DNA of 64,000 nt from Paenarthrobacter sp. A20 (GTDB lineage Bacteria > Actinomycetota > Actinomycetes > Actinomycetales > Micrococcaceae): assembly GCF_024168825.1 (NCBI RefSeq), contig NZ_JALJWH010000001.1:2294001-2358000 (forward strand), given 5' to 3'. Each line of letters opens with the position of its first letter. The stretch's first letter is position 1. The notes beneath the pieces are model-generated. The model was not told the DNA's origin. It did not search any database and saw only the letters and a program-made list of their open reading frames with translations. Below, piece after piece: positions 5,271 to 61,101 of the stretch. Made by a program: the position numbers and the translations under genes.

Positions 5271-5282
5271 CGTGTGCGGCTG

Positions 5283-5322: not shown

Positions 5323-5418
5323 GTAGTGCCTCCTACGCCAAGGGCGGGTGGGGCTCCCGCCGGACACCGGGATTCCCGCCCCGGAGGCACAAGAAGAGAC
5401 TATGGCCGGGTTTCGGCA

Positions 5419-5446: not shown

Positions 5447-5504
5447 CTGCACACCCATGAAATAGGGGGCGCGAAAGGCGAAGATGAGTGGTGGGCGGCA
5501 GCGT

Positions 5505-5918
5505 CTAGGTGGTGGCCCGCCGTCGAGCGTTCTTGCGTTCCACCGACTCCATGTACGTGATTATGCTTCCAATCGTCAGAGTCAGAGAGCAGATCACGGC
5601 GATCATTGTGGAGGTTTCCTGAAACGGCACCACCAGCAGCGGGCTGAGCATCATGGCGTTTCCGAACCCCGACGCGGCAAAGACGCCCGCTTTGAGCAGG
5701 AGGCATCTGAGCGGGTCAGCAATCAGTAGGGTTACCGGCGCCACGACACCCAGTGCCATAGTCAGGACGACGGCGGTGGTCCTCAGATCTACGGGATCAA
5801 GTACTTTCAAGCTTTCAGGAGGCGGGGCCGTCCCAAGCAGGGTGGCTGACACCGCAGAACACACGGCCACAACGCATGTGATGATGCGAACGGCCGCTGG
5901 GTAGAAGTGCGTGATCAC
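5505..5918 (-). CDS. Small four-helix membrane protein of unknown function
   Basis: A 137-residue protein with four hydrophobic stretches separated by short loops and a basic C-terminus (ERKNARRRATT). The GTG at 5918 was chosen because AGGAC precedes it at normal distance and the protein then begins just before the first membrane segment; the longer frame would overlap the divergent gene at 6022. I do not recognise the family. The layout resembles small membrane proteins of the holin or DUF type, but nothing else here looks phage-derived. The stop codon lies inside a CTAGGTG heptamer. Confidence 0.55.
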   Translation of the reverse strand: MITHFYPAAVRIITCVVAVCSAVSATLLGTAPPPESLKVLDPVDLRTTAVVLTMALGVVAPVTLLIADPLRCLLLKAGVFAASGFGNAMMLSPLLVVPFQETSTMIAVICSLTLTIGSIITYMESVERKNARRRATT

Positions 5919-6021
5919 TGGCAGGTCCTGTTCTGGTTGGTTCACCCCGTATACAGAGGTAGTGCGCGGAACTGGGCAGCTGTGACGCGGGCATTCGGCC
6001 TGCACTGGCAGAATTGCCGAT

Positions 6022-7272: not shown

Positions 7273-8017
7273 CCACGGTCTCCAGGATGCTGCCACGCCA
7301 GGTGTCGAGAGCAGCGCGGTCACTCTCGGGGAGGTCAGCTGCCTCGATGAAGCTACATAGGTCGAACCCGGCCAGAGCCGTCCGGAAGGCTCCTTCGGTA
7401 GTGGTGCCATGGCGCTCGCAGAGTTCGTTGAGCAAGGGTTCGGCGTTGTTTCTGTTGCTGCTGGCCGCTCGGAGGTCGCCCAGCCTGACGGTTTCAAGGT
7501 AGTCACCAACGATTTGCTCGGAACTGGTGTTCACGGCCGAAAGCAGAATCATGGCGATCATGCCGGTCCTGTCCCGGCCACCCATGCAATGAAAAAGGAC
7601 GCCACCTGGTGGAGCGTTGACGATGGAGGAGATGGCAGCTCCGGCTCGTTCGGGCATCTCAGTGAGGTGGGGCAGGAAGTATAGCGCGGTCCCGACCAAA
7701 CCGTTGTCCCAGTAGCCGGCCCAGAACTCCGTGTTCTCAAGTCCGTCAAGGTCCACGTTGATCGTGGTTAGCCAGGCTGGACGTTCTTGGGTGTCCCCTT
7801 CACGTTCCTGCGGTTGGCGAAGATCGACGACAGTACGGATCCCCGCCTCGTACACTTGCTCCCACCCGGAGGGGCTGATCCGGTCCACGTTGTCGCTCCG
7901 GAAAAACACGCCACGCGGCGTCCGGGTTCCGTCGGCACGCTCCAAACCGCCGAGGTCGCGGCCGTTGGTCAGACCATCAACCCGGAGGGCACGGTCCTTC
8001 CTCCCAGACTCTTCCAT
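7235..8017 (-). CDS. Tyrosine-protein phosphatase (MptpB-like dual-specificity family)
   Basis: A 260-residue cytosolic phosphatase. The catalytic P-loop HCMGGRDRTG lies near residues 143-152, with nucleophile Cys144 and the Arg of the C-x5-R motif. The N-terminal block GLTNGRDLGGL and then FRSDNVD and VVDLR are typical of the Y_phosphatase3 group, which removes phosphate from Tyr and from phosphoinositides or Ser/Thr. ATG 8017 was chosen over an upstream GTG (8062) because the conserved domain begins just after it. It stands alone and converges with the pRiA4b gene. Confidence 0.85.
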   Translation of the reverse strand: MEESGRKDRALRVDGLTNGRDLGGLERADGTRTPRGVFFRSDNVDRISPSGWEQVYEAGIRTVVDLRQPQEREGDTQERPAWLTTINVDLDGLENTEFWAGYWDNGLVGTALYFLPHLTEMPERAGAAISSIVNAPPGGVLFHCMGGRDRTGMIAMILLSAVNTSSEQIVGDYLETVRLGDLRAASSNRNNAEPLLNELCERHGTTTEGAFRTALAGFDLCSFIEAADLPESDRAALDTWRGSILETVVSPCGSERPRGT

Positions 8018-8095
8018 GCCCCAAGTAAAGCAAAGAGGGCTAACGCCCGCGCATGCTTTCACCCATTCAACTCCCTGATGTCGGAAGCGGCGTCA

Positions 8096-8129
8096 GGGGC
8101 GACCGTTGTTCCCCGGCCACGGTCGCCCC
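8096..8129 (-). terminator. Hairpin downstream of the Excalibur lipoprotein
   Basis: Ten-base arms (8096-8105 and 8120-8129, GGGGCGACCG/CGGTCGCCCC) pair perfectly, nine bases past the stop codon. No T-tract is present, as is common in high-GC genomes. Confidence 0.55.
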
Positions 8130-8138
8130 GAACGGCTA

Positions 8139-8861
8139 CTACTTCTCGCAGCCGACTCCGTCACCGTTGCCGTCGAGTTGATAGATGTCGGTCCCAACGA
8201 CCGTCACAGGACCCCTCACATATGCTGGGCCGTTACCTTTCCCACTCGCGCAATCAACATCGGACGCAATTGGCACGCAGTCACCCGTGTAGTTCGGATC
8301 GCAATTGCTCTGTGCCTGAGGCGCAGCCGGAACAGCTTTGGGAATTAACGCAGCAGCCGCGGCGTCCGCAGCTGCTTTGTCAGCGGCGGCCTTGTCGGCC
8401 GCGGCTTGAGCCGCCGCTGCCTGATCGGCTGCAGCTTTGTCAGCAGCTGCCTTATCCGCGGCTGCTTTGTCCGCAGCCGCCTTTTCAGCTGCAGCCTTCG
8501 CAGCCGCTTCCGCAGCTCGATCATCGGACAGTTTCTTTGCGGTCGCTGAGTCCGACCACGTTAATTTGCCAGCACGGTCAACCACGCATACGTACGTTTC
8601 TCCGGAAGAAGTTTGAGTCGCCTTCTCACTTTTACAGGCCGTCCCAGCGACCTTGCTGGGTGTAGGCGACGGTATCGCAGAAGGTGTTGCCGTTGTGCTG
8701 TTCACCGAGTTGGCGTTTGTCGTCGCCCCCTGACCGCAGGCTGTGGTCATAGCCAGCAGCGACGTGATCGCAACCAGTCCCAAAGTCTTCCTGCGTTGAG
8801 CCCAGGAAGACTTGCCTGGCAAATGCCGGTTTTTGGCCGTGCGATTAGAACCCTTTTTCAC
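8139..8861 (-). CDS. Lipoprotein with Ala/Lys repeat spacer and C-terminal Excalibur domain
   Basis: A 240-residue surface protein. A basic N-terminus and hydrophobic stretch end in the lipobox-like LAMTTACG, so Cys near residue 42 should carry the lipid anchor. A cysteine-containing segment follows, then about eleven AAADK-type pentapeptides forming an alpha-helical spacer, and a C-terminal Excalibur domain ending LDGNGDGVGCEK. Excalibur domains are small calcium-binding modules found in secreted actinobacterial proteins, often with nucleases. Here there is no enzyme domain, so the protein may present the module away from the wall. The GTG start has AGGGGG upstream. Confidence 0.8.
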   Translation of the reverse strand: MKKGSNRTAKNRHLPGKSSWAQRRKTLGLVAITSLLAMTTACGQGATTNANSVNSTTATPSAIPSPTPSKVAGTACKSEKATQTSSGETYVCVVDRAGKLTWSDSATAKKLSDDRAAEAAAKAAAEKAAADKAAADKAAADKAAADQAAAAQAAADKAAADKAAADAAAAALIPKAVPAAPQAQSNCDPNYTGDCVPIASDVDCASGKGNGPAYVRGPVTVVGTDIYQLDGNGDGVGCEK

Positions 8862-8957
8862 TTATTGCCCCCTTGTAGATGCGCCGATGCGATGGCGCGT
8901 CCCGTGACCATAACATTCGGCGGAATGGCAAGGGGAGGGAAAGTTACCTATGACTTA

Positions 8958-8986
8958 GCGTGCCGCTCACATTACAGGCGGCACGC
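8958..8986 (-). terminator. Hairpin after UDP-glucose dehydrogenase
   Basis: Nine-base arms GCGTGCCGC/GCGGCACGC (8958-8966, 8978-8986) pair perfectly 14 bases past the ugd stop codon. It fits a terminator of the glycosyltransferase-ugd operon. Confidence 0.55.
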
Positions 8987-9000
8987 CAAGACCTACGGGC

Positions 9001-10386
9001 TTACGCCCGCGCATGCTTCCGTCGAGCGCTAAGGTTCGCGTCCCCGCGCTCCTCAGCCACAACCGAAGCCCCCGTCCCCAACCCGCGGACCGTCCACCCC
9101 GCGCTCCGCCAGGCCTCAGCGTCCAGGACGTTTCGAGCGTCCAGCACCATCCGGCGTCGTACGAGTGACCCGACAACCGACGGCGACAGGGAAACGTATT
9201 CATCCCACTCAGTCAGCAGCAGCACCAGTTCGGCGCCTTCGAGGGCGCGCTTGGTGGAGGCTTCGAAGCGGATTTGCGGGTAGCGGATCCAGGCGTTGTT
9301 GATGGCTTTGGGGTCGGTGACGGTCACGTGTGCGCCGGCGGCTGCGAGTTGCTGGGCGACGTCCAGGGCGGGGGAGTCGCGGATGTCGTCGGTGTCGGGC
9401 TTGAACGCGGCGCCGAGGATGGTCACCGTGCGGCCGGACAGGAAGCCGCGGCACATCTCGCGGGCCACCTCCACGGCCCGGGAACGCTGGTCAAGGTTCA
9501 CCGAATCAACCAGGGCCATCCACTCGTCCACGGACGGCACCGACAGTTCGCGTGCCTGCGCACGGAACGACCGGATGTCCTTGGGTAGGCAGCCGCCACC
9601 AAACCCGAGCCCGGCGTGCAGGTACCGGTTGCCGATGCGCGGATCCAGGCCCATCGCCTCGCTGAGCTCGCTCACGTCAGCACCCGAAGCGTCGCACAGC
9701 TCAGCCATCGCGTTGATGAAGCTGACCTTGGTGGCAAGGAACGCGTTCGACGCCGACTTGATGAGTTCCGCCGTCGCGAAATTGCAGACCAGCCGAGGGA
9801 TGCCTGCGCAGATCAGCGGCTCGTACACGGCATCCAGCACAGCGGTGACCGGAGCGCCGGCAGCGGCACCCTTGCCGCCGGGGACGCCGTAAACCAGCCG
9901 GTCGGGGACCAGAGAATCTTTGACGGCCGTGCCCTGGCGCAGGAACTCGGGGTTCCAGCCGAGCAGCACGTCAGAACGACGGGCCAGGGTCGCGCGGAGC
10001 GCTTCAACCGTGCCAACCGGCACCGTCGATTTACCCACGACGGCGGCGCCCTTGGCCAGGTGCGGCAGGAGGCTCTTCGTGGCGCCCATCAGGTAGGAGA
10101 GGTCCGCGGTGTCAGAGGTCTTGGACTGCGGGGTGCCCACGCAGAGGAAGTGCACCTGCGCATCGGCGGCGGCGGAGAAATCGGTGGTGAACTCGAGGCG
10201 GCCAGTGGTGCGACCGTCCTTCAGGAGCTCATCCAGGCCGGGTTCGTGGAACGGTGCCATCGCCTTGTTGAGCTGCTCAACCTTGGAGGAATCGACGTCG
10301 ATACCCACCACGGTGTGGCCCATCGAAGCGAGCGTTGCGGCATGGACTGCGCCGAGGTAGCCGCAGCCGATCACGGAGATCTTCAT
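9001..10386 (-). CDS. ugd: UDP-glucose 6-dehydrogenase
   Basis: A 461-residue NAD-dependent enzyme that oxidises UDP-glucose to UDP-glucuronate for cell-surface polysaccharide. The Rossmann motif GCGYLGAVHAATLA lies at residues 8-21, the central block GFGGGCLPKD carries the catalytic Cys, and the C-terminal NAD-domain motif FKPDTDDIRDSPA is present. The start ATG 10386 was chosen because the dehydrogenase fold begins at MKISVIG and AAAGGA precedes it. It overlaps the upstream glycosyltransferase stop by four bases (ATGA), so the two are translationally coupled. Confidence 0.92.
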   Translation of the reverse strand: MKISVIGCGYLGAVHAATLASMGHTVVGIDVDSSKVEQLNKAMAPFHEPGLDELLKDGRTTGRLEFTTDFSAAADAQVHFLCVGTPQSKTSDTADLSYLMGATKSLLPHLAKGAAVVGKSTVPVGTVEALRATLARRSDVLLGWNPEFLRQGTAVKDSLVPDRLVYGVPGGKGAAAGAPVTAVLDAVYEPLICAGIPRLVCNFATAELIKSASNAFLATKVSFINAMAELCDASGADVSELSEAMGLDPRIGNRYLHAGLGFGGGCLPKDIRSFRAQARELSVPSVDEWMALVDSVNLDQRSRAVEVAREMCRGFLSGRTVTILGAAFKPDTDDIRDSPALDVAQQLAAAGAHVTVTDPKAINNAWIRYPQIRFEASTKRALEGAELVLLLTEWDEYVSLSPSVVGSLVRRRMVLDARNVLDAEAWRSAGWTVRGLGTGASVVAEERGDANLSARRKHARA

Positions 10387-49489: not shown

Positions 49490-50587
49490 CTACTTGGTGA
49501 TCGGGCCGAGTACCGGATCGTCAACGTAAGCGGTCTTGACGTTCTCCAGCGTCACGATCTGTGGCGGGAGGAGGTACGCGGGGACGGTCTTGACGCCGTT
49601 GTTGTAGGAGTCCTTGTCGTTGATTTCCAGTTCCTTGCCGGCCTGGAGGTCCTTCACCATGGTGATGGCGTGCTCAACGAGCTTGCGGGTGTCCTTGTTG
49701 ATGGTGGAGTACTGCTCGCCTGCCATGATCGACTTCACGGACTCAACTTCGGAGTCCTGGCCGGTGACAACCGGGAGCGGCTTGCCGGCGGCCCTGACGG
49801 ACGTCAGCACTGCACGGGCCAAGGTGTCGTTCGGGGACAGGACGCCGTCCAGGGAAGCGGTGCCATAGCTGCCGGTGAGCAGCGTGTCAGCGCGACGCTG
49901 GGCGTTTTCTGCCTTCCATCCCTGGGTAACAGCCTGCTCGAACGAGGTCTGGCCCGAAACAACCTTGAGGGTGCCGTCGTCGATCTTCGGCTTCAGGACG
50001 CTCATGGCGCCGTCGAAGAAGACCTTCGCATTGGCATCATCCGGGGAGCCGGCGAAGAGTTCGATGTTGTACGGACCCGTCGCCTTCTTGGCCTTCATGC
50101 CGTCCAACAGGGCCTGGCCCTGCAGTTCGCCAACCTTGAAGTTGTCGTAGGCCACGTAGTAGTCCACGTTCTCGGTGTTGAGGAGCAGGCGGTCGTAGGC
50201 GATGATCGTGGCGCCGGATTCCTTGGCCTGCTGGAGCTGGGTACCCAGCTGGGCGCCGTCGATGGCTCCCACGATGATGACCTTGGCGCCCTTGGTGACC
50301 ATGGCGCTGATCTGGTTCTGCTGCTCGGATACGCCGCCGTTGGCGAACTGTACGTCCGCCTTGAAGCCGGCGCTGGTGAGGCCGTCGTTGAACAGCTTCT
50401 CCGCGAGGACCCAGTTTTCACTGGTCTTCTGCGGAAGTGCGACGCCGATCAGCGAGTCCTTGGGGAACGCTTCCCCGCCTGCTGTGCTGCTGCTTGAGCC
50501 GCTGTCAGTGCGGCCGCAGGCTGTCAGCGCCAGTGCCGCGATGGCAGCGACTGCTGCTGCCTTTCCTGCTTTACCAAACATTCGCAT
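49490..50587 (-). CDS. chvE: Sugar-binding lipoprotein (ChvE-like)
   Basis: A 365-residue periplasmic-binding-type lipoprotein with signal and lipobox LALTACG (Cys about 24). The ChvE-type features are LIGVALPQKTSENWVLAEKLF, TIIAYDRLLLNTENVDYYVAYDN with the conserved YDR/YVAYDN blocks, and VVTGQDSEVESVKSI. Relatives bind monosaccharides such as glucose, galactose, xylose or arabinose. It is the last gene of the ROK-ATPase-permease-binding-protein group. The start is uncertain between ATG 50587 and GTG 50599; neither has a strong ribosome-binding site. Confidence 0.85.
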   Translation of the reverse strand: MRMFGKAGKAAAVAAIAALALTACGRTDSGSSSSTAGGEAFPKDSLIGVALPQKTSENWVLAEKLFNDGLTSAGFKADVQFANGGVSEQQNQISAMVTKGAKVIIVGAIDGAQLGTQLQQAKESGATIIAYDRLLLNTENVDYYVAYDNFKVGELQGQALLDGMKAKKATGPYNIELFAGSPDDANAKVFFDGAMSVLKPKIDDGTLKVVSGQTSFEQAVTQGWKAENAQRRADTLLTGSYGTASLDGVLSPNDTLARAVLTSVRAAGKPLPVVTGQDSEVESVKSIMAGEQYSTINKDTRKLVEHAITMVKDLQAGKELEINDKDSYNNGVKTVPAYLLPPQIVTLENVKTAYVDDPVLGPITK

Positions 50588-50641
50588 ATCTTGGTTCACT
50601 TTCTGTGTGGGTGGGGTGGAGCGAGTCTGTCAGGAAGCGGA

Positions 50642-51910
50642 TCACGCTTCCTTGGAGATGACCTCTTTGGTGGATGTGGTTTCGTCCGGCTTGATCTCGT
50701 TATTGCGCTGGAAGCTCTTCAGCAGCAGGCCGGTAATGGACCGCTTGCCCTGGGACTTGTTGTAGACATCGAAAGCGACTGCAGCCAGGAGCACCAGGCC
50801 CTTGATGATCTGGGTGAGGTCGGCGCCGACACCCAGGAGCTGGAGGCCGTTGTTGAGGACGGCCATGACCAGGCCACCGACGATCGAGCCGATCACGGTA
50901 CCGACACCACCGGTAACGGCAGCGCCACCGATGAAGACGGCCGCAATGGCATCCAATTCCCAACCGACGCCGTCGAACGGGCCGGAAGCAGTGGAGCGGG
51001 CAACGAAGATCATGCCGGCAAGGCCGGCCAGGATGGACATGTTCATCATGACCATGAAGTTGACCTTCTTTGACTGCACGCCGGACAGCTCAGCTGCGTG
51101 GCGGTTGCCACCCACCGCGTAGACGTGGCGGCCGAGGACCGTCTTGTCAGCGATGAAACCGTAGATGAGCACCAGCACGGCAAGGATCAGGCCGGGGATG
51201 GGGAAGGACGTTCCGGGGCGGCCAGTAGCGAACAGGTACGTCGCGTAGAGGATGGCACCGCAGATCAGCACCAGCTTGGTGACCTCAACCCAGAGCTCGG
51301 GAACATCGGCGCCTAGTGCCTTGTTGGCTGCACGGGCACGCAGGGACATGATGACCACCAACGCTGCCGCCGCAATGCCAATGAGCAAGGTGAGGTTGTT
51401 GAAGCCGGTGTTCGGGCCGATTTCGGGCAAGTACCCGGAACCAATGAACTGGAATTCCTTGGAAACGGGGATGGTGTTGGACTTGCCCACGAACTGGTTG
51501 AAGCCGCGGAACAACAGCATGCCGGCCAGCGTCACGATGAAGGCAGGTATGCCCACATACGCTGTCCATAGCCCTTGCCAGGCGCCGATCACTGCTCCAA
51601 GGAGCAGGCCGAAGAGCACACCCGCCCACCAAGGCAGGCCCCAGTCCCGCATGGCGAGGGCCACCGAAACCCCCACGAACGCGGCTACGGAACCGACGGA
51701 GAGATCGATGTGGCCGGCGATGATCACCAGGACCATGCCGATGGCCAGGATCAGGATGTAGGAGTTGCCGTTGAACAGGTTGATCACGTTACCGGGGGTC
51801 AACGTGCGGCCCCCGGTGAAGATCTGGAAGAAGACGATAAGTGCCACCAGGGCGAAGATCATGCCAAACTGGCGGGTATTGCCACCAAATAGCTTCTTGA
51901 GCGCGTTCAT
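50642..51910 (-). CDS. gguB: Multiple-sugar ABC transporter permease (GguB-like)
   Basis: A 422-residue permease of the BPD_transp_2 (RbsC/XylH) class with about ten helices. Conserved text includes ILAIGMVLVIIAGHIDLSVGSVAAFVG, the standard motif, and GRHVYAVGGNRHAAELSGV in the cytoplasmic loop. The length and the XylH-like extra loop suit GguB. AAGGA precedes the ATG. It pairs with the ATPase gene 44 bp upstream. Confidence 0.88.
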   Translation of the reverse strand: MNALKKLFGGNTRQFGMIFALVALIVFFQIFTGGRTLTPGNVINLFNGNSYILILAIGMVLVIIAGHIDLSVGSVAAFVGVSVALAMRDWGLPWWAGVLFGLLLGAVIGAWQGLWTAYVGIPAFIVTLAGMLLFRGFNQFVGKSNTIPVSKEFQFIGSGYLPEIGPNTGFNNLTLLIGIAAAALVVIMSLRARAANKALGADVPELWVEVTKLVLICGAILYATYLFATGRPGTSFPIPGLILAVLVLIYGFIADKTVLGRHVYAVGGNRHAAELSGVQSKKVNFMVMMNMSILAGLAGMIFVARSTASGPFDGVGWELDAIAAVFIGGAAVTGGVGTVIGSIVGGLVMAVLNNGLQLLGVGADLTQIIKGLVLLAAVAFDVYNKSQGKRSITGLLLKSFQRNNEIKPDETTSTKEVISKEA

Positions 51911-51954
51911 TGTTTTGGTCCTTGTGTCAGGATGGGGCGAGTCTGGGCCAACGG

Positions 51955-53511
51955 TCAGGCGGTTTTGCGGGCGGAAGTCATGAGTTTCATGAGGCTTTCC
52001 TGGCTTGCTTCGTTTTTGTCCAGGACGCCGGTGATGGCGCCTTCGAAGATGGTGTAGATACGGTCGGACAGGCCCAGGAGCTCAGGGAGTTCCGAGGAAA
52101 TGACAATCACTCCCTTGCCCTGGTTCGCGAGCCTCTGGATGATTCCGTAGATCTCGTACTTGGCACCTACGTCGATTCCGCGGGTGGGTTCGTCCAGGAT
52201 CAGGAGGTCGGGGTCGGTGAACATCCACTTGGCCAGCACAACTTTCTGCTGGTTGCCGCCGGAGAGTTTGGCCACGCCTTCCTCAACCGACGGGGTCTTG
52301 GTCCGCAGTGACTTCCGGTACTCCTCCGCCACCGTGAACTCCTTGCGCGTATCCACCACCGAGTAGTTGCTGATTTTGTTCAGTGCCGCGGAAACCGTGG
52401 TGGTCTTGATGTCGTCCAGCAGGTTCAGCCCCAAGGACTTGCGGTCCTCAGTGACGTAGCCCAGGCCGGCGTCGATGGCCTGCTTGACGCTGCGGAGGTG
52501 GACCGGCTTGCCGTCCTTGTACACCTGGCCCTTGATGAAGCGGCCGTAGGAGTGGCCAAAGAGGGAGCGGGCCAACTCCGTGCGGCCGGCGCCCATGAGC
52601 CCTGCGAAGCCGACGATTTCGCCGCGGCGCACAAAGAAGTTGGAACCTTTGCAGATCAGGCGGTCCGAGATCTGGGGGTGTCCCACGGTCCAGTCCTTGA
52701 CCTCGAAGAACACCTCGCCGATCGTGGGTTCGTGGTCCGGGAAGCGGGACTCGAGCGTCCGGCCAACCATGCCCTTGATGATGCGGTCCTCGTCCACGCC
52801 ATCACGCTTGACGTTCAAGGTCTCGATGGACTTGCCGTCACGGATGATGGTGATCTCGTCCGCGATCTGTTCGATCTCGTTGAGCTTGTGGGAAATGATG
52901 ATCGAGGTGATGCCCTTGCCTTTGAGGCCCAGGATCAGGTCCAACAGGTGCTGGGAATCGGATTCGTTCAGCGCTGCGGTGGGCTCGTCCAGGATCAGCA
53001 GGCGAACGGACTTGTTCAGGGCCTTGGCGATTTCCACCAGCTGCTGCTTGCCGACGCCGATTTCCTTGATGGGGGTATCGGGATCCTCGCGCAGGCCAAC
53101 GCGGGCCAGCAGTTCGAGGGAACGCTTGCGGGCCTCGGTCCAGTCGATCACGCCCCACTTGGTGGGTTCGTTTCCGAGGAAGATGTTTTCCATGATGGAC
53201 AGTTCCGGGATCAGGGCCAGTTCCTGGTGAATGATCACGATGCCGGCCGCTTCACTGGCGCGGATGTCCTTGAACTGCTGGGTTTCGGCTTGGTACACGA
53301 TGTCGCCGGTGTAGCTTCCGTACCCGTAAACGCCGGAAAGAACCTTCATGAGCGTGGACTTGCCGGCGCCGTTTTCCCCGCAGATTGCGTGGATTTCGCC
53401 GGCCATCACACGCAGGCTCACGTTCGACAAGGCCTTCACGCCGGGGAATTCCTTCGTGATCGAGCGCATCTCCAAAAGGATGGGATCACCTTGCGTGTCG
53501 AGGGATGTCAT
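51955..53511 (-). CDS. gguA: Multiple-sugar ABC transporter ATP-binding protein (GguA-like)
   Basis: A 518-residue tandem ATPase as usual for monosaccharide importers. The first domain has [31 protein letters not shown] and [13 protein letters not shown]; the second has [18 protein letters not shown] in the degenerate P-loop position, [15 protein letters not shown] and [14 protein letters not shown]. The degenerate second Walker A is normal for the family. AAGGG lies just before the ATG. A TTGACG/TTTACT promoter lies in the 129-bp gap after the ROK gene. Confidence 0.92.
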
Positions 53512-53578
53512 CAGCCCTTACGCCTCCAATGCATGACTTCGTTGTCGGCCCCGCAGTGGCGAGGCTGTCTGATGAAAA

Positions 53579-53608
53579 AGTAAACTGGATCACGGCCCTT
53601 GTCGTCAA
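53579..53608 (-). promoter_or_regulatory. Predicted promoter of the sugar-transport operon
   Basis: TTGACG (53608-53603) and TTTACT (53584-53579) on the minus strand are 18 bp apart, 68 bp before the ATPase ATG. Confidence 0.45.
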
Positions 53609-53629
53609 GACTTGAACGCAAGAGCCAGC

Positions 53630-53643
53630 TAACGATTTCGTTA
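53630..53643. promoter_or_regulatory. Palindrome TAACGATTTCGTTA, candidate ROK operator
   Basis: Perfect 6-bp arms around TT lie 21 bp upstream of the predicted -35 element and overlap the stop codon of the ROK gene. Repressors of this family bind AT-rich palindromes; the position would suit control of the transporter operon. Confidence 0.4.
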
Positions 53644-54831
53644 CCTACCGGTAATACCCGCGTGTTGGAAGACCAAAGCGGCGGCCCCGAGTGCCTCTGC
53701 GCGCGCCCCGAGGGACGACATTGCGAGGTGGGTTGTCTCGCCCACGACAGGTACGGCGTGCCTGACCAGGCCGCGCCGGATGGGGTCCAGCAGGAGGTCC
53801 CCGAGGCCCGCCAAAGGTCCGCCCACGACGATCACTTCAGGGTTGATGAGGTTGGAGACGTTGCCCAAAGCGCGTCCCACTGCCAGTCCGGCGTCGTCCA
53901 CCACCCGCTGTGTCGCGGAGTCGCCGGCGAGGCAGTTCCGGACGATATCCTGCGGTGTCAGCAGGGTCTCCTGGCCGCGTCCCAGCAGTTCGATCATGGT
54001 GGTGGTGGACGCTATCGTTTCGAGGCAACCCCTGTTCCCACAGCGGCACACCAGGCCATGTTCGTGAATGGTTGCATGGCCGATTTCGCCGGTGATTCCC
54101 ACATTGCCGTAATAGGGAAATCCGTTGAGGATCAGGCCCGCGCCAATGCCCGAGCCGATCTTGAGGAACATCAGGTTGGAGACCCCGCTGTGGGGTCCCC
54201 ACGTTACTTCGGACAGCGCGCCCAGGTTGGCGTCGTTGTCAACGAAGACGGGGCAATTGAGCGCTTCCTCAAGCCGATGGAGGATGTCGATGCCCACCCA
54301 TTCCGGAAGGATGGCTCCCTGGGCAACCGTGCCGGAGCGGCGGTCGATGGGGCCGGGAATGCCCGCGCCCGCCCCCACCACGGCAGTGCGGTCGATGCCG
54401 TTTTCCTGCAGCAGCCTTTCCAGCAGGCGGACTGCGGCAGCGATGCCTTCCTCAGCCTGGTGGCCCAGCGGCAATTCGATGTAATCCTCGGCAATAACGT
54501 GATAGCCCAGCGAGGCCAGGACCACGCGCAGGTGCCGGCGCCCGAAGTCGATTCCGACGGCGACCGCACCGTTGCTGTTCAGCCTCACGTTGGTTGCCCG
54601 GCGCCCGGAGCTGGTGGTGGGTTCCGTGGAAACCAGGCCGGCGTCCTGCATGATCTTCACGATGTTCGAGATCGTCGCCGTGGAAAGCCCGGTCTGGCGC
54701 GACAGCTCTGCTTGCGTGGAGGGACCGCTCAGCAGGCACTCGATGATGCGTTGCTGGTTCAGGTGGCGCAGCGCGGACTGCGAGCCGGGTTTTCTTGGGT
54801 GGCTCTTCGTTGAGCGCTGCGTAGCGGGCAT
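53641..54831 (-). CDS. ROK-family transcriptional repressor
   Basis: A 396-residue regulator with an N-terminal winged helix (QQRIIECLLSGPSTQAELSRQTGLSTATISNIV) and a ROK sugar-kinase-like domain: VAVGIDFGRRHLRVVLA, CPVFVDNDANLGALSE, GIGAGLILNGFPYYG, GEIGH and the zinc motif CRCGNRGCLETIAS. It is XylR/NagC-like and should sense a sugar to control the downstream GguAB-ChvE-type importer. The ATG 54831 was chosen because the HTH begins shortly after; no ribosome-binding site is visible. Confidence 0.88.
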   Translation of the reverse strand: MPATQRSTKSHPRKPGSQSALRHLNQQRIIECLLSGPSTQAELSRQTGLSTATISNIVKIMQDAGLVSTEPTTSSGRRATNVRLNSNGAVAVGIDFGRRHLRVVLASLGYHVIAEDYIELPLGHQAEEGIAAAVRLLERLLQENGIDRTAVVGAGAGIPGPIDRRSGTVAQGAILPEWVGIDILHRLEEALNCPVFVDNDANLGALSEVTWGPHSGVSNLMFLKIGSGIGAGLILNGFPYYGNVGITGEIGHATIHEHGLVCRCGNRGCLETIASTTTMIELLGRGQETLLTPQDIVRNCLAGDSATQRVVDDAGLAVGRALGNVSNLINPEVIVVGGPLAGLGDLLLDPIRRGLVRHAVPVVGETTHLAMSSLGARAEALGAAALVFQHAGITGR

Positions 54832-54934
54832 GACAAGAAGATTGCCCCACAAGCGACGTTGTAGTCAAGAAGTGAACACAAGGAGTCAACACTCCCCGAC
54901 ATACTCCAACGCAAGAACACCCGTTATGTACCCC

Positions 54935-55150: not shown

Positions 55151-56017
55151 ATGATGCTGCTCTCAGTCCTGCAGGCGAACGCTTCCGTGATGGACGTTGA
55201 GGCGAACCTGCGCACAATCGACGACGCCGCGCAGCGCGCCGCCCACGCAGGGGCCGGGTTGCTCCTCACGCCGGAGTTGTTCCCCGTGGGATATGCCCCT
55301 CTGCGGCTGCACGCCGAACTGGACCCTGCCACTCTCCCGGACATTCGCGAACGCCTGGCTGACATTGCCCGCCGGCACAAGATCGGCCTGGTCTACAGCC
55401 TTCCGGCAGTGAGCCGGCAGGCAGCCGTCAACCAGCAAGAGACAGCGCACGACGACGTCGCGCAGCCAGCCGCCGCTGGCAACGGCTGGCACATCACGGC
55501 TACTTTGGTGGACGCCTCAGGCGCAGAGGTTCTCAACTACGCGAAGGTGCATCTCTTTGGGCCGGAAGAGCACAAGGCGTTCGTGGCCGCCCAAGAACCT
55601 CCCGCCGTCGTGGATTTCAACGGACTCCGTACGTCGATGCTGATCTGCTACGACGTTGAGTTCCCAGAAGCTGTGCGTGCCGCCGCCACGCGCGGCGCCG
55701 AACTCCTACTCGTCCCAACGGCCCTGTCCGCCGGGTTCGACAACGTGCCGCAAGTACTCATCCGAGCCCGTGCCCTGGAGAGCCAACTCAACGTGGCCTA
55801 CGCCAACCACTCCGGACACGAGGATGTGTACACCTTCCTGGGTGGCAGCGTTGTGGCCGGTCCTGACGGCTCTCTACTGGCTGCCGCCGGGGAAGGTTCA
55901 GCTTTGCTGTTCGCCGAGGTAGGCGCGGAAGCGGTCAAAGCCGCGCGTGAGGAAGTCCCGTACCTTCGTGAGCGCAGGCCGGAACTGTACGGGCAATGGC
56001 AGGACAGGCAGGGCTAG
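55151..56017 (+). CDS. Nitrilase/omega-amidase family carbon-nitrogen hydrolase
   Basis: A 288-residue enzyme of the nitrilase superfamily. The catalytic triad is visible as Glu42 in LLTPELFPVGY, Lys in VLNYAKVHLFGPEE and Cys in MLICYDVEFPEAVR. The text VQVLIRARALESQLNVAYANHSG-like (here PQVLIRARALESQLNVAYAN) is typical of aliphatic amidases and N-carbamoyl hydrolases. AAGGTGG precedes the ATG pair 55151/55154. Its stop codon is the same CTAG tetranucleotide as that of the convergent M50-like gene. The substrate is unknown. Confidence 0.85.
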   Translation: MMLLSVLQANASVMDVEANLRTIDDAAQRAAHAGAGLLLTPELFPVGYAPLRLHAELDPATLPDIRERLADIARRHKIGLVYSLPAVSRQAAVNQQETAHDDVAQPAAAGNGWHITATLVDASGAEVLNYAKVHLFGPEEHKAFVAAQEPPAVVDFNGLRTSMLICYDVEFPEAVRAAATRGAELLLVPTALSAGFDNVPQVLIRARALESQLNVAYANHSGHEDVYTFLGGSVVAGPDGSLLAAAGEGSALLFAEVGAEAVKAAREEVPYLRERRPELYGQWQDRQG

Positions 56018-56541
56018 GGGTCAACCTGAAGCAGGTGTACTTGCCGCCGCCATGCTAGTAGGCCTTTGACCAGGCTTCTGCCGTCGCCGAAAAGTGGCAA
56101 CAAGAATATGGCGTGAAGGAAGAACCACCAGTGAAGTGCATAGTCAGGCAGCGCCAAGGCAACCGGGACCCCTGCGACACACGCCGCCAAGGGGCCGGCC
56201 AGGGCAATAAGTGCTGCCTGCCAACCCACGAGTCTTCCCATGGGAATGACTGAGAATCTCAGCAGTGTGCTCGCAAAGGTGACGTGGGTAATTCCCGGGG
56301 TCAGCTTGAGGCCGAGGACGTGGGAGCCCTCGTGAATCACAAAGCCGATCAGCAGGCAGGATGCATGGATCAGCAGCCAAAAGGCCGGTTGCAGAATCCC
56401 GGGAATCCCCGCCACCGCGGTGACTGCGCAGGCAGTGAAGCCGGCAGCCACTGCGGCGGCCGGAACGCGGACGGCCCAAACCAGGCTTTTGACGGCCACC
56501 ATGACTTTGACCTCGTCAATGGGAACCGTGCTGAGATTCAC
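56014..56541 (-). CDS. M50-like membrane metalloprotease of the peptide cassette
   Basis: A 175-residue membrane protein with about four helices. HEGSH at residues 70-74 in the second helix fits the HExxH zinc site, ALAGPLAA near 113-120 matches the conserved GP segment, and LLPLFGDGRSL near 148-156 fits the LDG-type third ligand motif of site-2 proteases. Such small M50 proteins cleave substrates inside the membrane. The GTG start overlaps the previous gene by four bases (GTGA). It is the last gene of the peptide/ABC operon, so the 79-residue peptide is the likely substrate. Confidence 0.75.
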   Translation of the reverse strand: MNLSTVPIDEVKVMVAVKSLVWAVRVPAAAVAAGFTACAVTAVAGIPGILQPAFWLLIHASCLLIGFVIHEGSHVLGLKLTPGITHVTFASTLLRFSVIPMGRLVGWQAALIALAGPLAACVAGVPVALALPDYALHWWFFLHAIFLLPLFGDGRSLVKGLLAWRRQVHLLQVDP

Positions 56542-56855
56542 CGCTGCTGTGCCTGCAGCAGTTGCTTTTTGCGGAGCTTGAGCTTTTCAAGGACTACAGT
56601 GACCGCCACGCAAAAAACGAAGAAGATGCCGAAGATGATCGCAATGGGTGTGCCGTCGGCGACCCCAATTTCCAAGGCCGTTGCGCCGCTGGCTTGCTCG
56701 TGGGCCTCGAAGAAGATGGCACCGAAAAGCCCAAATTTTCTGACGCCCACGTCCATAGTGGAAAACATGGCCATGATGAATCCTGCCACCACCATTGCCA
56801 TGGTGATCACAAATGACACTGAAAATGCCGTGATAACTCTAAGAAGCCACTTCAT
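56538..56855 (-). CDS. Small two-helix membrane protein of the peptide cassette
   Basis: A 105-residue protein with two helices (VITAFSVSFVITMAMVVAGFIM and IAIIFGIFFVFCVAVTVVLE, listed here in parts) separated by a ~40-residue loop, and a basic cytosolic tail (KLKLRKKQLLQAQQR). AAAGGAT precedes the ATG, which overlaps the permease gene by 17 bp. No family is recognised. In bacteriocin loci proteins of this size and shape are often immunity factors; that role is a guess from context. Confidence 0.6.
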   Translation of the reverse strand: MKWLLRVITAFSVSFVITMAMVVAGFIMAMFSTMDVGVRKFGLFGAIFFEAHEQASGATALEIGVADGTPIAIIFGIFFVFCVAVTVVLEKLKLRKKQLLQAQQR

Positions 56856-58266
56856 GGCGTCGAATCCTTTCCATCCTCTGCATGCCGAGGATGCTGTACG
56901 TCACAACCAAGATATTTAGAACTGAGTAAACTACTGCGCTTATCGCCGGTTCGAGATTGAATACGTTGAGGCCGAGCGTGATCGTCAAGATGACGATAAT
57001 GGCCAGCACCGCACCGACCAGAACAGTGAATGGGTTCCCCTTTTCCGGTGGAAACGCAATACCTATGAGGGTGGAGATAAGAATATTGCTGAGGCAGAAT
57101 CCTGCTACGGGCAAACACGCAGAGAGCTCAATGCCTTGAGCAAGGCTGGCCGCGGTAACCGGAATCGCGACCGTAACCCAGAGGATTATCTGCGAGCCGA
57201 GGATGCTCGCGTAGTTCCTCCACGCGCTGACGTGCAGCACTGACATGCGCCGCAATGGTTCAGAATTTACATAGGCGTACACACCCTGAAATGTAATGAG
57301 AGCCAAAACATAGGGTGGAATGACAATGTGTTGCAGCCATGCAAACAGCGAAAACGCTAAGACGAAGATGACGGAAACTAGTGTTTCGAAGCTGCGGAAC
57401 AGCACCAGCGTGCAGGCCCCCAGCCTCCACGTTGCAATCTCGGAAGGAAGCAAGATGATGAAGCGACGGAGGGGGACGTACGCTCCGGGAGCAGCGGCCA
57501 CGATGCCGGCAATAACGGCCATGGAGGCTGCGGCAAAGCTCACCACCGCGAGCCACAATCCGAAGTTCTTTTCAAGTGTGGAGTACACCAGCAGCGGCGA
57601 ACTGTAGTCACGCCCCTCGACGAAGCTCTCGGCAATCACCGCCGTCTGCTCATTCGTATAGGGGAACAGAACTGAGAGGCCTATCGCCAGGACAATCGGT
57701 ACCAGTAGTCCTCGGAGCCGTGCCAGCCGCATGATGAGGAGGCTGCGTTCCAAGAGATAGTAGGCCAGGCTGAGGAGAAGATAAACAGTCGCTACCGGAA
57801 GCCAAATGGACACCGCAATCTTCGTAATGAAATCCGGGCCCTCAAGAAGCACCGTTGATATCGAGAATGCGCCGAAAACGAAAACCGTCATCACTGCCAC
57901 CACCGATGCCTCGAACAAAGCGAAGGCAAGCGTTCGTTCCTTGTTGGTGGCAGGAAGGTGAAAGGACAACTTTAGAAGTTCATCCGCCTTCAAGAAGAGG
58001 ACCCGTATCAGCGTGTACGCAATGAGGACCCAAAAACCCACCGAAACGTTGGCGATTGCGAGGACGGGTTCGAATAAATCAGTTCCACCGAGATACTGCC
58101 GCATCACCGTGTAGCTGAGAACATTGAATCCCGCAAATCCGAGCAGCACAATAAAGGCGCCAGCGATTCGCATTGCTCTCGAGGCCAGGAGTCCACGTCC
58201 CAGAACCTGCCGGAGAATGAATGTCCAAAATAGTCGAAACAACAGGACAATGCTTTCGAGCCGCAT
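56839..58266 (-). CDS. ABC transporter permease of the peptide cassette
   Basis: A 475-residue integral membrane protein with about twelve helices and no large extracellular domain. The N-terminal part is amphipathic (VLLFRLFWTFILRQVLGRG), as in ABC-2 type subunits. Its ATG directly abuts the ATPase stop codon with no intervening base. It should form the export or immunity channel with that ATPase. The codons include more A/T-ending ones than in neighbouring genes such as the nitrilase, hinting at transfer of the whole cassette. Confidence 0.75.
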   Translation of the reverse strand: MRLESIVLLFRLFWTFILRQVLGRGLLASRAMRIAGAFIVLLGFAGFNVLSYTVMRQYLGGTDLFEPVLAIANVSVGFWVLIAYTLIRVLFLKADELLKLSFHLPATNKERTLAFALFEASVVAVMTVFVFGAFSISTVLLEGPDFITKIAVSIWLPVATVYLLLSLAYYLLERSLLIMRLARLRGLLVPIVLAIGLSVLFPYTNEQTAVIAESFVEGRDYSSPLLVYSTLEKNFGLWLAVVSFAAASMAVIAGIVAAAPGAYVPLRRFIILLPSEIATWRLGACTLVLFRSFETLVSVIFVLAFSLFAWLQHIVIPPYVLALITFQGVYAYVNSEPLRRMSVLHVSAWRNYASILGSQIILWVTVAIPVTAASLAQGIELSACLPVAGFCLSNILISTLIGIAFPPEKGNPFTVLVGAVLAIIVILTITLGLNVFNLEPAISAVVYSVLNILVVTYSILGMQRMERIRRHEVAS

Positions 58267-58983
58267 CTACTCGACTTCCATTGACTGGATGTACTCAGAA
58301 GCAAGGACCGAGAGGTTGCCATAGTCCTTGTTGACTGAACCCAGGTCCCCTTGGAAGACCAGGGCGCCTTGGATGAGGACGGTAACGTCATCGGCCACAT
58401 TCTCAAGAACGTTGAAGTCATGGCTGCACAAGAGTACCGAGCGCCCATCGCTTGCGAGATTCCGGACGTCTTTTTCGAAGATCTTTACTGATTCGATGTC
58501 CACTCCATTGAGTGTCTCATCGATAACAGTGAGACGACGTTCCAGCATGAATGCGGCAATGAGCTGGAGTTTCTTGCGCATTCCATGGGAGTAGTCCTCA
58601 ATGAGGTCACGGTGGCGACCACTCATTGAATAGCGGTCAAAGTGATGACCAAGGACATTCAGATCGAGCGGTTCAGTGTAGAGACCATGCATGAATCGAA
58701 GGTATTCTTCACCGGTTAGGAACTCGGGCAGGTAATCATTGCTCGAGAGGTACATTGCAGACATTTTCGCACTGCGACTGGAATTCCTGTGCCCGTTGAT
58801 GTGGACGCTGCCACCCTGCATTTGCAGTAGGCCCAAAATCACCTTTATGAGGGTTGACTTGCCTGATCCGTTGGGACCGATAAGACCCATGATTCTGTTT
58901 CCGGAAATGCTGAGTGAGACGTCATGCAGGACTTGCTTCTGAAAGTTGTACGCATAATCGATGTGGTCGACAGTAAGGGGCAT
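58267..58983 (-). CDS. ABC transporter ATP-binding protein of the peptide cassette
   Basis: A 238-residue ATPase. Walker A GPNGSGKS is at residues 36-43. The signature is the variant YSHGMRKKLQL near 131-141, and Walker B reads LTVIDETLNGVD near 151-162, with Thr where Pro is usual. The H-loop is CSHDF. SHGMRKK is common in drug and peptide exporters. ATG 58983 was chosen because the frame upstream overlaps the peptide gene. A 70-bp gap with a perfect stem-loop separates it from the peptide gene. Confidence 0.88.
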   Translation of the reverse strand: MPLTVDHIDYAYNFQKQVLHDVSLSISGNRIMGLIGPNGSGKSTLIKVILGLLQMQGGSVHINGHRNSSRSAKMSAMYLSSNDYLPEFLTGEEYLRFMHGLYTEPLDLNVLGHHFDRYSMSGRHRDLIEDYSHGMRKKLQLIAAFMLERRLTVIDETLNGVDIESVKIFEKDVRNLASDGRSVLLCSHDFNVLENVADDVTVLIQGALVFQGDLGSVNKDYGNLSVLASEYIQSMEVE

Positions 58984-59008
58984 TGGGCTTTGGCTCCATG
59001 ATCTGGCT

Positions 59009-59037
59009 GTGGTGGCATCGCACGACGATGCCACCAC
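59009..59037 (-). promoter_or_regulatory. Stem-loop between peptide and transporter genes
   Basis: Twelve-base arms GTGGTGGCATCG/CGATGCCACCAC (59009-59020, 59026-59037) pair perfectly around five bases. No T-tract follows, so partial termination or mRNA 3'-end protection is more likely than full termination. It is the arrangement used in bacteriocin operons to make more peptide than exporter. Confidence 0.7.
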
Positions 59038-59053
59038 CGCGGTTATCTGACGA

Positions 59054-59293
59054 CTAGACGCACTCCACCCAGACGGAAACGCCCCACTGGCTCCAACTCC
59101 AGTTGCCGACGAACCGTCCACGGCCGGACGTCAGGCACCAGATGGCCATGGCGCCCAGAATCGCGAATGCGAGGACCATAAGAACAGCGAGCAGGACGAG
59201 GAACCAACCGTCGTAACGAATGACCATATGGTCGATTTTGCTCCTGATTGCGGCCACGGTGCTGGTGGCCTGTACTGCTGTTGTAGCGAGCAT
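59054..59293 (-). CDS. 79-residue membrane peptide with Trp-rich C-terminus, putative bacteriocin or signal precursor
   Basis: GAGGGGGG four to five bases before ATG 59293 is one of the strongest ribosome-binding sites in the window. Residues 1-29 are a leader with basic residues (RSKIDHMVIRYDGW at 17-30), residues ~31-54 form one membrane helix (FLVLLAVLMVLAFAIL), and residues 55-79 form a Gly/Ser/Trp-rich tail (GRGRFVGNWSWSQWG, then VSVWVECV) with four Trp and one Cys. The positive-inside rule puts the tail outside. It heads the ABC/M50 cassette. I know no named family that fits; a precursor of a secreted peptide is the best reading. Confidence 0.7.
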   Translation of the reverse strand: MLATTAVQATSTVAAIRSKIDHMVIRYDGWFLVLLAVLMVLAFAILGAMAIWCLTSGRGRFVGNWSWSQWGVSVWVECV

Positions 59294-59460
59294 ATTTCCC
59301 CCCTCGGAAATGATGATCTGTACGGCGCCGATGAGATTCGGCACCCACGAGGAGGCTAGACACCTTGAGCAGCCCCCTAGCCGCCCGACAGCCAAAATAG
59401 GTGCCAATAGCGCCGAAAATGAGTGGTGAAAACCGCTTGCACAGAAGAATTCGGTGTCAT

Positions 59461-61101
59461 CTAGGTGGTGCCCGCCAGATCCGTGGAGTCCACCAGCTCG
59501 TCCACGTACTGCAACGCGAACCACAACTCAGCACGCACCTGCGCCTGGTTGAGGTCCATGTCCAGCAGTTCGCCGAGCACGCCGATCTGCCGCCGCACAC
59601 TGTTTCTGTGCAATCCCAGCAGCTTGGCGGAACCGTCCCAACTGCCGTTTTCGCTGAGCCATCCCCGCAGCACGCTCAACAGCGGGTCCCGCCGATCAGC
59701 TTCCAACGCGAGCACGGGCGCCAGGAGCCGCTCGGCCAGCAGGGTTCCCGCCTCGCGCCCCAAAAGTCCGGCAACGGACCACGTCACCTCATCCACGCGG
59801 GCGCTCTTGCCGGTGGTAACAACTCGACTCCGAAGCGAACTAGCTCGCTGGTAGGCGGCCGTAAGACCGGTGAGTTCCGCGGGTTCGCCGATCACCAGGC
59901 GCCACCCGAGTTTCTCAACATCGGCCAGCAGGGAGTCATCCACCTTCAGCCGTGTGATCGCAGCGAAGCCGTACTCGGTGATCTCTACGAGCTTGGTGTC
60001 GAACAGCCTCCGCCACTGCAGCAGCTCGCGGACGGGCCCGTCGTCGGCAGCACCGTCCACCCTGACGCCTTGAACCACTCGCATCTGTGCCGAGCGGGTG
60101 GAGGAGAGACTCTGCGCCACCAGGTCCTTCAGCCCGTTGACATGCTTGGTCCCGCCGGAGGTTATCGAATCCGGATGCAGCAGAACCGCCGTAGCCAACT
60201 GGCTCGGAGCAAGCGAACCGCTGGTCCGCTGCCGCACCAGCAGCTCCAGCAACCCCACAGCCGACTGCACCACGTTGTTCTGGGCCGGCGTCAGTGGCGT
60301 ATCCGAGCCGAGGATCAGTGCACCCAAGTTCGCGTCCTTGGTGCTGCGCAGAGGATGACCGAACACCAATGCCGATCCCGGCTGGTCAAAACCGTCCATC
60401 TCCACCCGCGGACCGCTGCCGGACAACAGCCGCTCCAGCATCGGCGCCAACAAAGAATGCTCGACGCCGGTGCTGCCGCCGGCATGGTGCCCGGAGGCTC
60501 CCTGCCCGCCGGTGTTGTGCCCGCGCGCCCGGACCCGCCCGTCCGCGCCAACAAGGACAGCCCACACAGGCACCCGTTGAACCAGGGCCGCGAGCAGTTC
60601 GTGCTCGGGCCTGGGGGAGAGGACCGCCCGCATGAGCTGTCGGTTGGTGTCGGCCAGTTGCCGGAAGACCCTCGCGTTGTCCGATTCCAGGAGTTGGGAG
60701 AATTCCAGCCCGATCGCCGCGAACGGCAGTGATTCCGGAACTTCGAACAAGGTGAGGTTGTGCCGGCGGCAGGCATCCACCAAAGCGTCGGGAACGGCGT
60801 CGAAATAGGGCCTGATCCCGAAGCCCAGCGCCGCCACCTTCGCATCCACCAGCCGCTGGACGTAGGCATCCACCTTCGCCGCCGAGCCACCTTTCCCAAG
60901 GAAAGGCAGCCCGGCGGTCAGGAGGAACTCACCCTCCGGCAGGTATGGCGTGGGGTCCTCAAGCTCACTGGGCTCCACCCACCGGAGCAGCGAGGCGCCG
61001 CTGCCGCCGTCGTGAAGTAGTTTCAACTCCGGCGGCAGCTGCTCCAGGAACTGTTCGAGCGTGACGAAGCTCAGGCGGGCGGTGGCGGGCTCAGGCGACA
61101 T
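59461..61101 (-). CDS. PucR-family transcriptional regulator
   Basis: A 546-residue regulator. The N-terminal PucR sensor domain (FVTLEQFLEQLPPELKLL, LLRWVEPSELEDPTPYLPEG) is followed by a GAF-like middle region and a C-terminal PucR HTH (LLSVLRGWLSENGSWDGSAK, LLGLHRNSVRRQIG). Members control purine catabolism, proline use or amine transport. Its ATG lies inside the end of the alanine racemase gene (11-bp overlap), so it is expressed with alr and may regulate alr and the divergent permease. The 167-bp gap 59294-59460 behind it should hold the peptide promoter; nothing clear was found in it. Confidence 0.85.
   Translation of the reverse strand: MSPEPATARLSFVTLEQFLEQLPPELKLLHDGGSGASLLRWVEPSELEDPTPYLPEGEFLLTAGLPFLGKGGSAAKVDAYVQRLVDAKVAALGFGIRPYFDAVPDALVDACRRHNLTLFEVPESLPFAAIGLEFSQLLESDNARVFRQLADTNRQLMRAVLSPRPEHELLAALVQRVPVWAVLVGADGRVRARGHNTGGQGASGHHAGGSTGVEHSLLAPMLERLLSGSGPRVEMDGFDQPGSALVFGHPLRSTKDANLGALILGSDTPLTPAQNNVVQSAVGLLELLVRQRTSGSLAPSQLATAVLLHPDSITSGGTKHVNGLKDLVAQSLSSTRSAQMRVVQGVRVDGAADDGPVRELLQWRRLFDTKLVEITEYGFAAITRLKVDDSLLADVEKLGWRLVIGEPAELTGLTAAYQRASSLRSRVVTTGKSARVDEVTWSVAGLLGREAGTLLAERLLAPVLALEADRRDPLLSVLRGWLSENGSWDGSAKLLGLHRNSVRRQIGVLGELLDMDLNQAQVRAELWFALQYVDELVDSTDLAGTT

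Follow-up and report, generated by a model that had tools for sequence, protein, structure and literature searches.

Organisation of the locus

The window analysed here, a stretch of 64,000 nucleotides, contains five genes on its minus strand encoding, in this order, a 79-residue peptide with one membrane helix, an ABC transporter ATPase, a permease, a two-helix protein and a protease with an HExxH motif (Table 1). The peptide gene is separated from the ATPase gene by a gap of 70 bp. There are 0 bp between the ATPase and permease genes, and overlaps of 17 bp between the permease gene and the gene for the two-helix protein and of 4 bp between the latter and the M50-like protease gene, which has a GTG start. 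Coordinates, head-to-tail layout and overlaps agree with the initial annotation of this DNA, which had also correctly recognised an operon for a peptide product, equipped with an ABC transporter and a site-2-type protease. The frame of the peptide, preceded by the ribosome-binding site GAGGGGGG, is a real gene.

Table 1. Features of the cassette (pHOB2, staphylococcal plasmid with a homologous operon)
Feature	Position	Strand	Remarks
tmcA-like precursor peptide gene, 79 aa	59054..59293	-	single transmembrane helix; cysteines C53 and C78; 51% identical to TMcin-G1905 across 49 aa
Predicted leader, residues 1–28	59210..59293	-	cleavage point predicted from alignment with the published mature peptide
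Predicted mature TMcin, residues 29–79, 51 aa	59057..59209	-	helix, Trp-rich tail, predicted C53–C78 disulfide
Ribosome-binding site and spacer GAGGGGGGAAAT, before ATG of the peptide gene	59294..59305	-	
Long GC-rich hairpin between peptide and ATPase genes	59006..59040	-	without a T run
tmcB-like ABC transporter ATPase, 238 aa	58267..58983	-	PF00005 E 1.2e-20; pHOB2 ATPase profile match, 229 bits
tmcC-like permease, 475 aa	56839..58266	-	no Pfam family; all-helical model
tmcE-like two-helix escort protein, 105 aa	56538..56855	-	pHOB2 two-helix profile match, 75 bits; hhalign 98.5%
tmcP-like site-2-type metalloprotease, 175 aa	56014..56541	-	HEGSH, P149-x3-D153-G154
Whole cassette, bounded by the stop codons of two flanking genes, nitrilase-type (+) and regulator (-)	56018..59460	.	

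The nitrilase-type gene and the regulator gene adjoin each other in relatives without the cassette, and a blastn comparison with one cassette-free relative left window positions 55992–59487 unmatched. Because our terminator scan requires a T run, it is blind to the hairpin between the peptide and ATPase genes; its sole terminator-like site (59221–59234) lies inside tmcA on the opposite strand. A scan for sigma-70 promoters found none upstream of tmcA, and Rfam at gathering scores gave no match anywhere in the window.

Conservation of the cassette and its peptide

Relatives of the peptide are present in 18 of 198 genomes of the genus, its own included, with E values of at most 6.2e-11; beyond these 18 the best match has E 0.0034. 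The co-occurrence of peptide and M50-like genes, which the initial annotation had proposed as a check, is tight, as the other four genes adjoin the peptide gene in all 17 other genus genomes with peptide relatives. Homologous loci with an absent or broken peptide frame, named there as contrary evidence, do exist but are few, and the proposal withstands its own check: a search with the permease only, covering other families, yielded 11 loci in 10 genomes, and the peptide was intact in 10 of the 11. Three loci (L046, L059 and L063) retain the other four genes and lack the peptide or its start, lost in L046 by a deletion of about 160 bp that retained both copies of a GGCGCC repeat. At L009 the peptide is kept and the ATPase and permease are broken, and loss therefore runs in both directions. 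The five-gene cluster is real and widespread.

For residue-level comparison we used 27 intact peptides, including that of the window, from seven families as labelled (f1, f3, f4, f7, f19, f45 and f57), leaving out the truncated L046, L059 and L078, the peptide-less L063 and L056, which begins at a contig end. The single tail cysteine of the initial annotation is present (C78), but a second one, C53, sits where the membrane helix ends. All 27 peptides have both cysteines, spaced by 25 residues in 25 of them, by 24 in L047 and by 26 in L076. The first of the two tryptophans flanking the helix is likewise kept throughout and the second in 26/27 (Tyr in L082). The leader is the variable part, with predicted lengths of 24–43 residues. 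The tail is well conserved within the genus, and the predicted mature peptide, which would begin with GWFLV, has a calculated average mass of 5685.8 Da and a monoisotopic mass of 5681.9 Da. Comparison with 11 full-length genus relatives indicates purifying selection (pN/pS 0.23 overall) and a helix more constrained than the tail (0.10 versus 0.25), figures that are rough because synonymous sites are near saturation.

Protease, permease and two-helix protein

Neither the peptide nor the permease was matched in single-protein scans with Pfam, NCBIfam and PADLOC, and hits to the two-helix and M50-like proteins did not rise above noise. The M50-like protein carries the HEGSH, AGPLAA and FGDGRSL motifs reported for it initially. 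An HExxH motif together with a distal Pro/Asp motif is found in 31 of 31 M50-like proteins, and H70, E71, H74, P117, P149, D153 and G154 are the only invariant columns among 19 divergent sequences, the window's included. The predicted fold is of the site-2-protease type, and a profile match establishes homology to the pHOB2 protease. PF11667 matches nine of the 19 relatives at E ≤ 0.1, the window's own protein being without a match, and PF02163 (Peptidase M50) matches one, at E 0.035; a PF02163 search of the own genome did not list the cassette gene. The profile of the M50-like protein had no match among PDB sequences at E ≤ 1, nor did the protein match plasmids at 1e-5. With its HExxH motif, distal Asp and predicted fold the cassette protease is like SpoIVFB, Methanocaldococcus jannaschii S2P and RseP; unlike them it is smaller, and its linkage ties it to one peptide.

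The permease matches the pHOB2 permease by profile (234 bits; hhalign 99.8%) at 24.9% identity, and its predicted structure is all-helical (mean pLDDT 79.5); searching PDB sequences with its profile gave no match at E ≤ 1. Among 19 two-helix proteins, four resemble the LlsX family at E ≤ 1 (best 0.0022). We did not adopt this resemblance, as the window's own protein reaches 11.7 bits where the cut-off is 29.

The cassette as a probable TMcin biosynthetic gene cluster

Taken together, we consider it very probable that the cassette is a TMcin biosynthetic gene cluster of the order tmcA-tmcB-tmcC-tmcE-tmcP. Over 49 residues the peptide shares 51% identity with mature TMcin-G1905, a Staphylococcus aureus bacteriocin encoded on plasmid pCT545 (Dickey et al, 2025, Nat Commun, PMC12328743), whose family is further treated in a 2026 preprint (Nur et al, PMC13252029). 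Our profiles also hit each of the five genes in an operon of TMcin layout on the Staphylococcus epidermidis plasmid pHOB2 (NZ_CP018844.1). The cassette had been called undescribed; it is neither undescribed nor a new kind of system, the TMcin family being already published.

According to the published work, TMcin-G1905 is secreted and kills, and processing removes the leader on the N-terminal side of the helix, leaving a mature peptide that retains the helix and carries a disulfide; two universally conserved cysteines and two conserved tryptophans flanking the helix are hallmarks of the family, and TmcC has a 12-helix single-chain type V fold (PMC12328743, PMC13252029). The cassette has counterparts of the core genes A, B, C, E and P, recognised by homology or by similar features, and shares with these clusters a helix-containing precursor with two helix-flanking tryptophans and two conserved cysteines 25 residues apart, a DUF3267/site-2-type protease, a two-helix escort and a one-chain permease.

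Differences concern arrangement and accessories. The predicted leader has 28 residues compared with 45 in TMcin-G1905, and unlike the cluster of the latter, the present one is chromosomal, has a hairpin between A and B and lacks both tmcD and a regulator pair. The tmcD oxidoreductase is described as confined to staphylococcal clusters (PMC13252029) and is therefore not defining here; the three PF13462 (DsbA-like) and two VKOR matches of the genome all lie outside the window. The five homologous genes stand in one row in pHOB2 as well, but there the peptide gene comes last and a helix-turn-helix regulator is adjacent; the order B-C-E-P-A is also that of the preprint text (PMC13252029), whereas here the peptide comes first. 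As three arrangements in two phyla have been reported (PMC12328743/PMC13252029), the order A-B-C-E-P may already figure among them.

Alternative readings

A site-2-type protease next to a one-helix peptide gene, with a genus-conserved tail that would suit a signal, would also fit an intramembrane cut that frees only the C-terminal tail (about 20–27 residues) as an Eep-type pheromone, the product envisaged in the initial annotation. We regard this as very improbable. Selection is tighter on the helix than on the tail, none of the 27 intact peptides lacks either C78 or the helix-end C53, the homologue TMcin-G1905 is secreted with its helix, and no regulator or receptor recurs among the 20 neighbour proteins scanned, a part of all neighbours. 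Release of the tail is unlikely because the TMcin product, by analogy with S. aureus, would be the helix-containing, disulfide-bearing 51-residue peptide.

Slightly less credible still is that the peptide is no product but belongs to the ABC transporter, as a membrane subunit or as its regulator. Tight linkage to the transporter would fit, and so would L009, where an intact peptide gene lies beside a broken ATPase and permease. Against it, in three loci the other four genes persist after loss of the peptide or of its start, the peptide gene carries a strong ribosome-binding site of its own and is separated from the rest by the hairpin, secretion and killing are documented for the staphylococcal homologue, and the protease would be left without an obvious substrate.

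The Bacillus subtilis epipeptide locus yydFGHIJ comprises a peptide, an M50-like protein, an ABC transporter and a radical SAM epimerase. That the cassette is such a YydF-like cluster minus its radical SAM enzyme would fit the joint presence of peptide, ABC transporter and M50-like protein but has hardly any probability: the peptide aligns to TMcin, and none of the seven radical SAM (PF04055) matches of the genome falls in the window, as initially observed, the nearest being about 104 kb before the window begins, at a distance of about 160 kb to the cassette. The two loci share the combination of peptide, M50-like protein and ABC transporter and differ in the epimerase, which is present in B. 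subtilis and not here. The parallels first drawn to yydFGHIJ and Eep are looser than the TMcin match.

Proposed mechanism

The present analysis supplies the genes, their homology and conservation, the motif of the protease and the predicted fold; for cleavage, escort, disulfide, export and pore formation we follow the published S. aureus work. As a TMcin, the 79-residue precursor would be anchored in the producer membrane through its single helix, with the N-terminus facing inwards, and the TmcP-like protease, aided by the TmcE-like escort, would remove about 28 residues just before Gly29-Trp30. A C53–C78 disulfide would tie the Trp-rich tail, probably a β-hairpin, to the top of the helix. Since tmcD is missing here, we infer oxidation by host DsbA/VKOR-type proteins or air. 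The TmcBC-like transporter would then extract the 51-residue peptide, helix included, and the secreted peptide may insert into competing Gram-positive membranes and oligomerise into pores. The tmcA/tmcB hairpin, again by our own inference, probably allows peptide to be made in excess over the machinery.

Possible implications for TMcin dosage and immunity

TMcin clusters escaped genome mining according to the authors (PMC12328743/PMC13252029), and the preprint, by its own account, left self-immunity unstudied (PMC13252029). The main texts of both papers contain no mention of a conserved hairpin, such as the one seen here, between the peptide and ATPase genes, of an empty insertion site or of machinery-only loci without the peptide, and no treatment of how peptide dose is set (PMC12328743, PMC13252029). 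New here are soil relatives with complete five-gene TMcin clusters, and the 27 intact peptides from seven families provide a basis for judging which residues matter.

Natural alleles in which peptide and machinery are separated bear, together with a candidate RNA element, on self-immunity and peptide dose. We tentatively suggest, as a combined proposal that is possible rather than probable, that in Actinomycetota TMcin clusters the hairpin sets the dose, its shape being kept more than its sequence, by partial transcript stop or protection, and that tmcBCEP confers immunity in strains that lost tmcA. If true, the peptide would be made in excess over escort, protease and transporter, and the tmcBCEP left over in tmcA-less strains would serve to protect them from TMcin producers, giving an answer to the question of TMcin self-immunity.

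Gene order and conservation of the peptide gene

The five genes of the cassette run head to tail on the - strand, and the layout proposed in the initial annotation proved exact.

Genes of the TMcin-like cassette (window positions)
Gene	Position	Strand	Spacing
Peptide	59293-59054	-	first gene of cassette
ATPase	58983-58267	-	+70 bp gap after peptide gene
Permease	58266-56839	-	0 bp from ATPase gene
Two-helix protein	56855-56538	-	-17 bp (overlap with permease gene)
M50-like protein	56541-56014	-	-4 bp (overlap with two-helix gene)

The peptide is a real gene. Among 198 genus genomes (own genome included), 18 match it at E ≤ 6.2e-11, the next match lying at E 0.0034, and in 17/17 of the other genus loci (tblastn) the peptide is followed, in unchanged order, by ATPase, permease, two-helix and M50-like genes. 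Compared with 11 full-length relatives from outside the window's close group, the peptide gene has pN/pS ratios of 0.10 in the helix, 0.25 in the tail and 0.34 in the leader; these are rough because pS (0.66–0.80) is near saturation. A large protein collection contained 16 peptide relatives at E ≤ 0.01, and its listing calls none of them a bacteriocin. By permease, the closest named loci are those of Arthrobacter sp. EpRS71 and MYb23 (98%) and of two Paenarthrobacter species (88%), a ranking from which records very near the window (G000:C1:2294001-2358000 within the 5.38-Mb genome) were possibly excluded.

The unit seems to consist of these five genes alone, because the 20 neighbouring proteins scanned, from 12 of 14 divergent loci (L077 and L080 left out), belong to unrelated families or none. 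Within the window, the frames at 49490-54852 presumably encode a ROK-type regulator and a sugar ABC transporter in one operon, with nothing to connect them to the cassette.

Membership in the TMcin family

The cassette had initially been regarded as undescribed, but its class was published in 2025. Two reports describe TMcin as a secreted, antibacterial, pore-forming peptide; when mature, it carries an N-terminal helix, flanked by a pair of conserved Trp, and a sheet of two strands that a disulfide between two universally conserved Cys holds in place (PMC12328743; PMC13252029). According to the same reports, TmcP (DUF3267, site-2 clan) cuts off a 45-residue leader, the two-helix protein TmcE is required for this removal, TmcBC serve secretion and TmcD, found in staphylococci only, serves oxidation; homologues occur in Bacillota and Actinomycetota in three gene arrangements.

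An ungapped alignment of the window peptide with the published mature sequence of TMcin-G1905 from Staphylococcus aureus has 25/49 identical residues (E 1e-17 in a single comparison). Searched against plasmids with a cut-off of E ≤ 1, the permease had two hits: pHOB2 of S. epidermidis (24.9% identity, E 6e-12) and one plasmid from Roseburia (E 3e-5). pHOB2 encodes, in a row, an ATPase, a permease, a 95-aa protein, a metalloprotease and a 98-aa protein. Our actinobacterial cassette profiles, which contain no pHOB2 sequence, match these genes in turn with 229, 234, 75, 56 and 66 bits (E 1.3e-71 to 1e-18; the E-values flatter the matches because the set comprised five proteins, bit scores being unaffected). 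The best cross-match to a wrong pHOB2 gene reached 3.2 bits (E 0.02), and hhalign agrees with the profile matches. By layout and homology, the pHOB2 operon may be called TMcin-like. The class is known, and the cassette is a genuine new member of it, well conserved. The Roseburia plasmid (NZ_CP135163.1) encodes at 3286-5419 an ABC ATPase and a permease of distant similarity, with no annotated peptide or protease adjoining.

Co-occurrence beyond the genus

Among 396 genomes of the order, the permease profile (A4) matched nine, and among 394 of the class, four; both counts include the own genome, and one further genome is common to both. The 10 other matching genomes, all outside the window's family, carry 11 loci, which we scored with profiles built from 18 genus loci. 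Peptide frame, ATPase, permease and protease were found in 11/11 and the two-helix gene in 10/11, the peptide being intact in 10. One protease (L082) matches weakly (E 0.0053) but has HELMH and DG. Damage takes the form of a peptide without helix and a permease interrupted by about 1.5 kb (L078), an apparent deletion of the permease end, two-helix gene and protease start (L084) and a frameshifted permease (L081). The co-occurrence of peptide and M50 genes, suggested initially as a check, thus holds outside the family as well as in 17/17 genus loci (one peptide, in L046, partial).

A 1.9-Mb genome (G459) contains two divergent TMcin-type cassettes, L082 and L083, with CDDG in place of FGDG in the protease motif. 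In genome G013, the end of an open frame (L011, 6385-7038, - strand) resembles the M50-like protein (E 3.9e-14); its surroundings yielded no further cassette gene.

Predicted product

Setting C53 equal to TMcin position 25 places the predicted leader cut between D28 and G29, and R-Y/F/H-D precedes this site in 25 of the 27 intact peptides. The mature peptide would comprise 51 residues (50–53 in relatives), with a predicted mass of 5685.8 Da including the disulfide. The operon has no tmcD; three DsbA-like (PF13462) and two VKOR matches in the own genome are candidates for the oxidation.

Empty sites and peptide-loss alleles

With the upstream regulator as query, 22 of 26 genus genomes matched, three of which have the cassette (own, G012 and G022). 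In 18 of the remaining 19, a nitrilase-type gene directly adjoins the regulator with no cassette gene between; the exception is G005 (L099), where the stretch yielded no nitrilase. One such site (L088) has a regulator 98% identical to the window's, yet no cassette, and blastn against it leaves window positions 55992-59487 unmatched. Judged by this gap and the 18 cassette-free sites, the cassette was either inserted or lost as a discrete piece of about 3.4 kb lying between two convergent genes.

Some loci keep the machinery and have lost the peptide. In L046 (genome G134), a deletion of about 160 bp around 2850-3030 has taken the peptide's ribosome-binding site and, from the start codon on, roughly its first 44 codons, the other four genes being open. 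The 5′ part of the L059 peptide is foreign, beside a stretch that we take to be a transposase. In a Micrococcus MAG (L063, 5288-8268), four machinery genes lie downstream of a LuxR-type response regulator, with no recognisable peptide gene. L009 (genome G022, 4855-9407) shows the opposite state, an intact peptide beside broken transporter genes: the ATPase is frameshifted, and an insert, presumably an insertion sequence, splits the permease. Machinery retained without peptide could possibly provide immunity; recent loss of the peptide explains these loci just as well.

A predicted hairpin between the peptide and ATPase genes

In 18/18 genus loci, window included, the interval separating the peptide stop from the ATPase start is predicted to fold into a long, GC-rich stem, with energies of -25.3 to -43.0 (without shuffled controls). 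Across 14 intervals (13 of the 18 genus loci plus L059; L033, L036, L039, L042 and L047 left out), in an alignment not fitted to structure, 13 pairs are predicted, five with pair-keeping changes on both sides; since the sequences are related, this covariation is support rather than proof. Nine of 12 further loci have a hairpin with z of -2.9 to -5.7 (100 mononucleotide shuffles), among them L082, with a long interval owing to an uncertain ATPase start, and L086, for which the 120 bases after the peptide stop were folded. The hairpin is absent from L077 and L083 and in L085 does not go beyond base composition (z -1.4). The window's stem lacks a T run, and the hairpin may act as a partial terminator or 3′-end protector that would raise the peptide dose. 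What keeps this new member of interest is the order of the genes in actinobacteria, the hairpin and the natural alleles that have lost the peptide.
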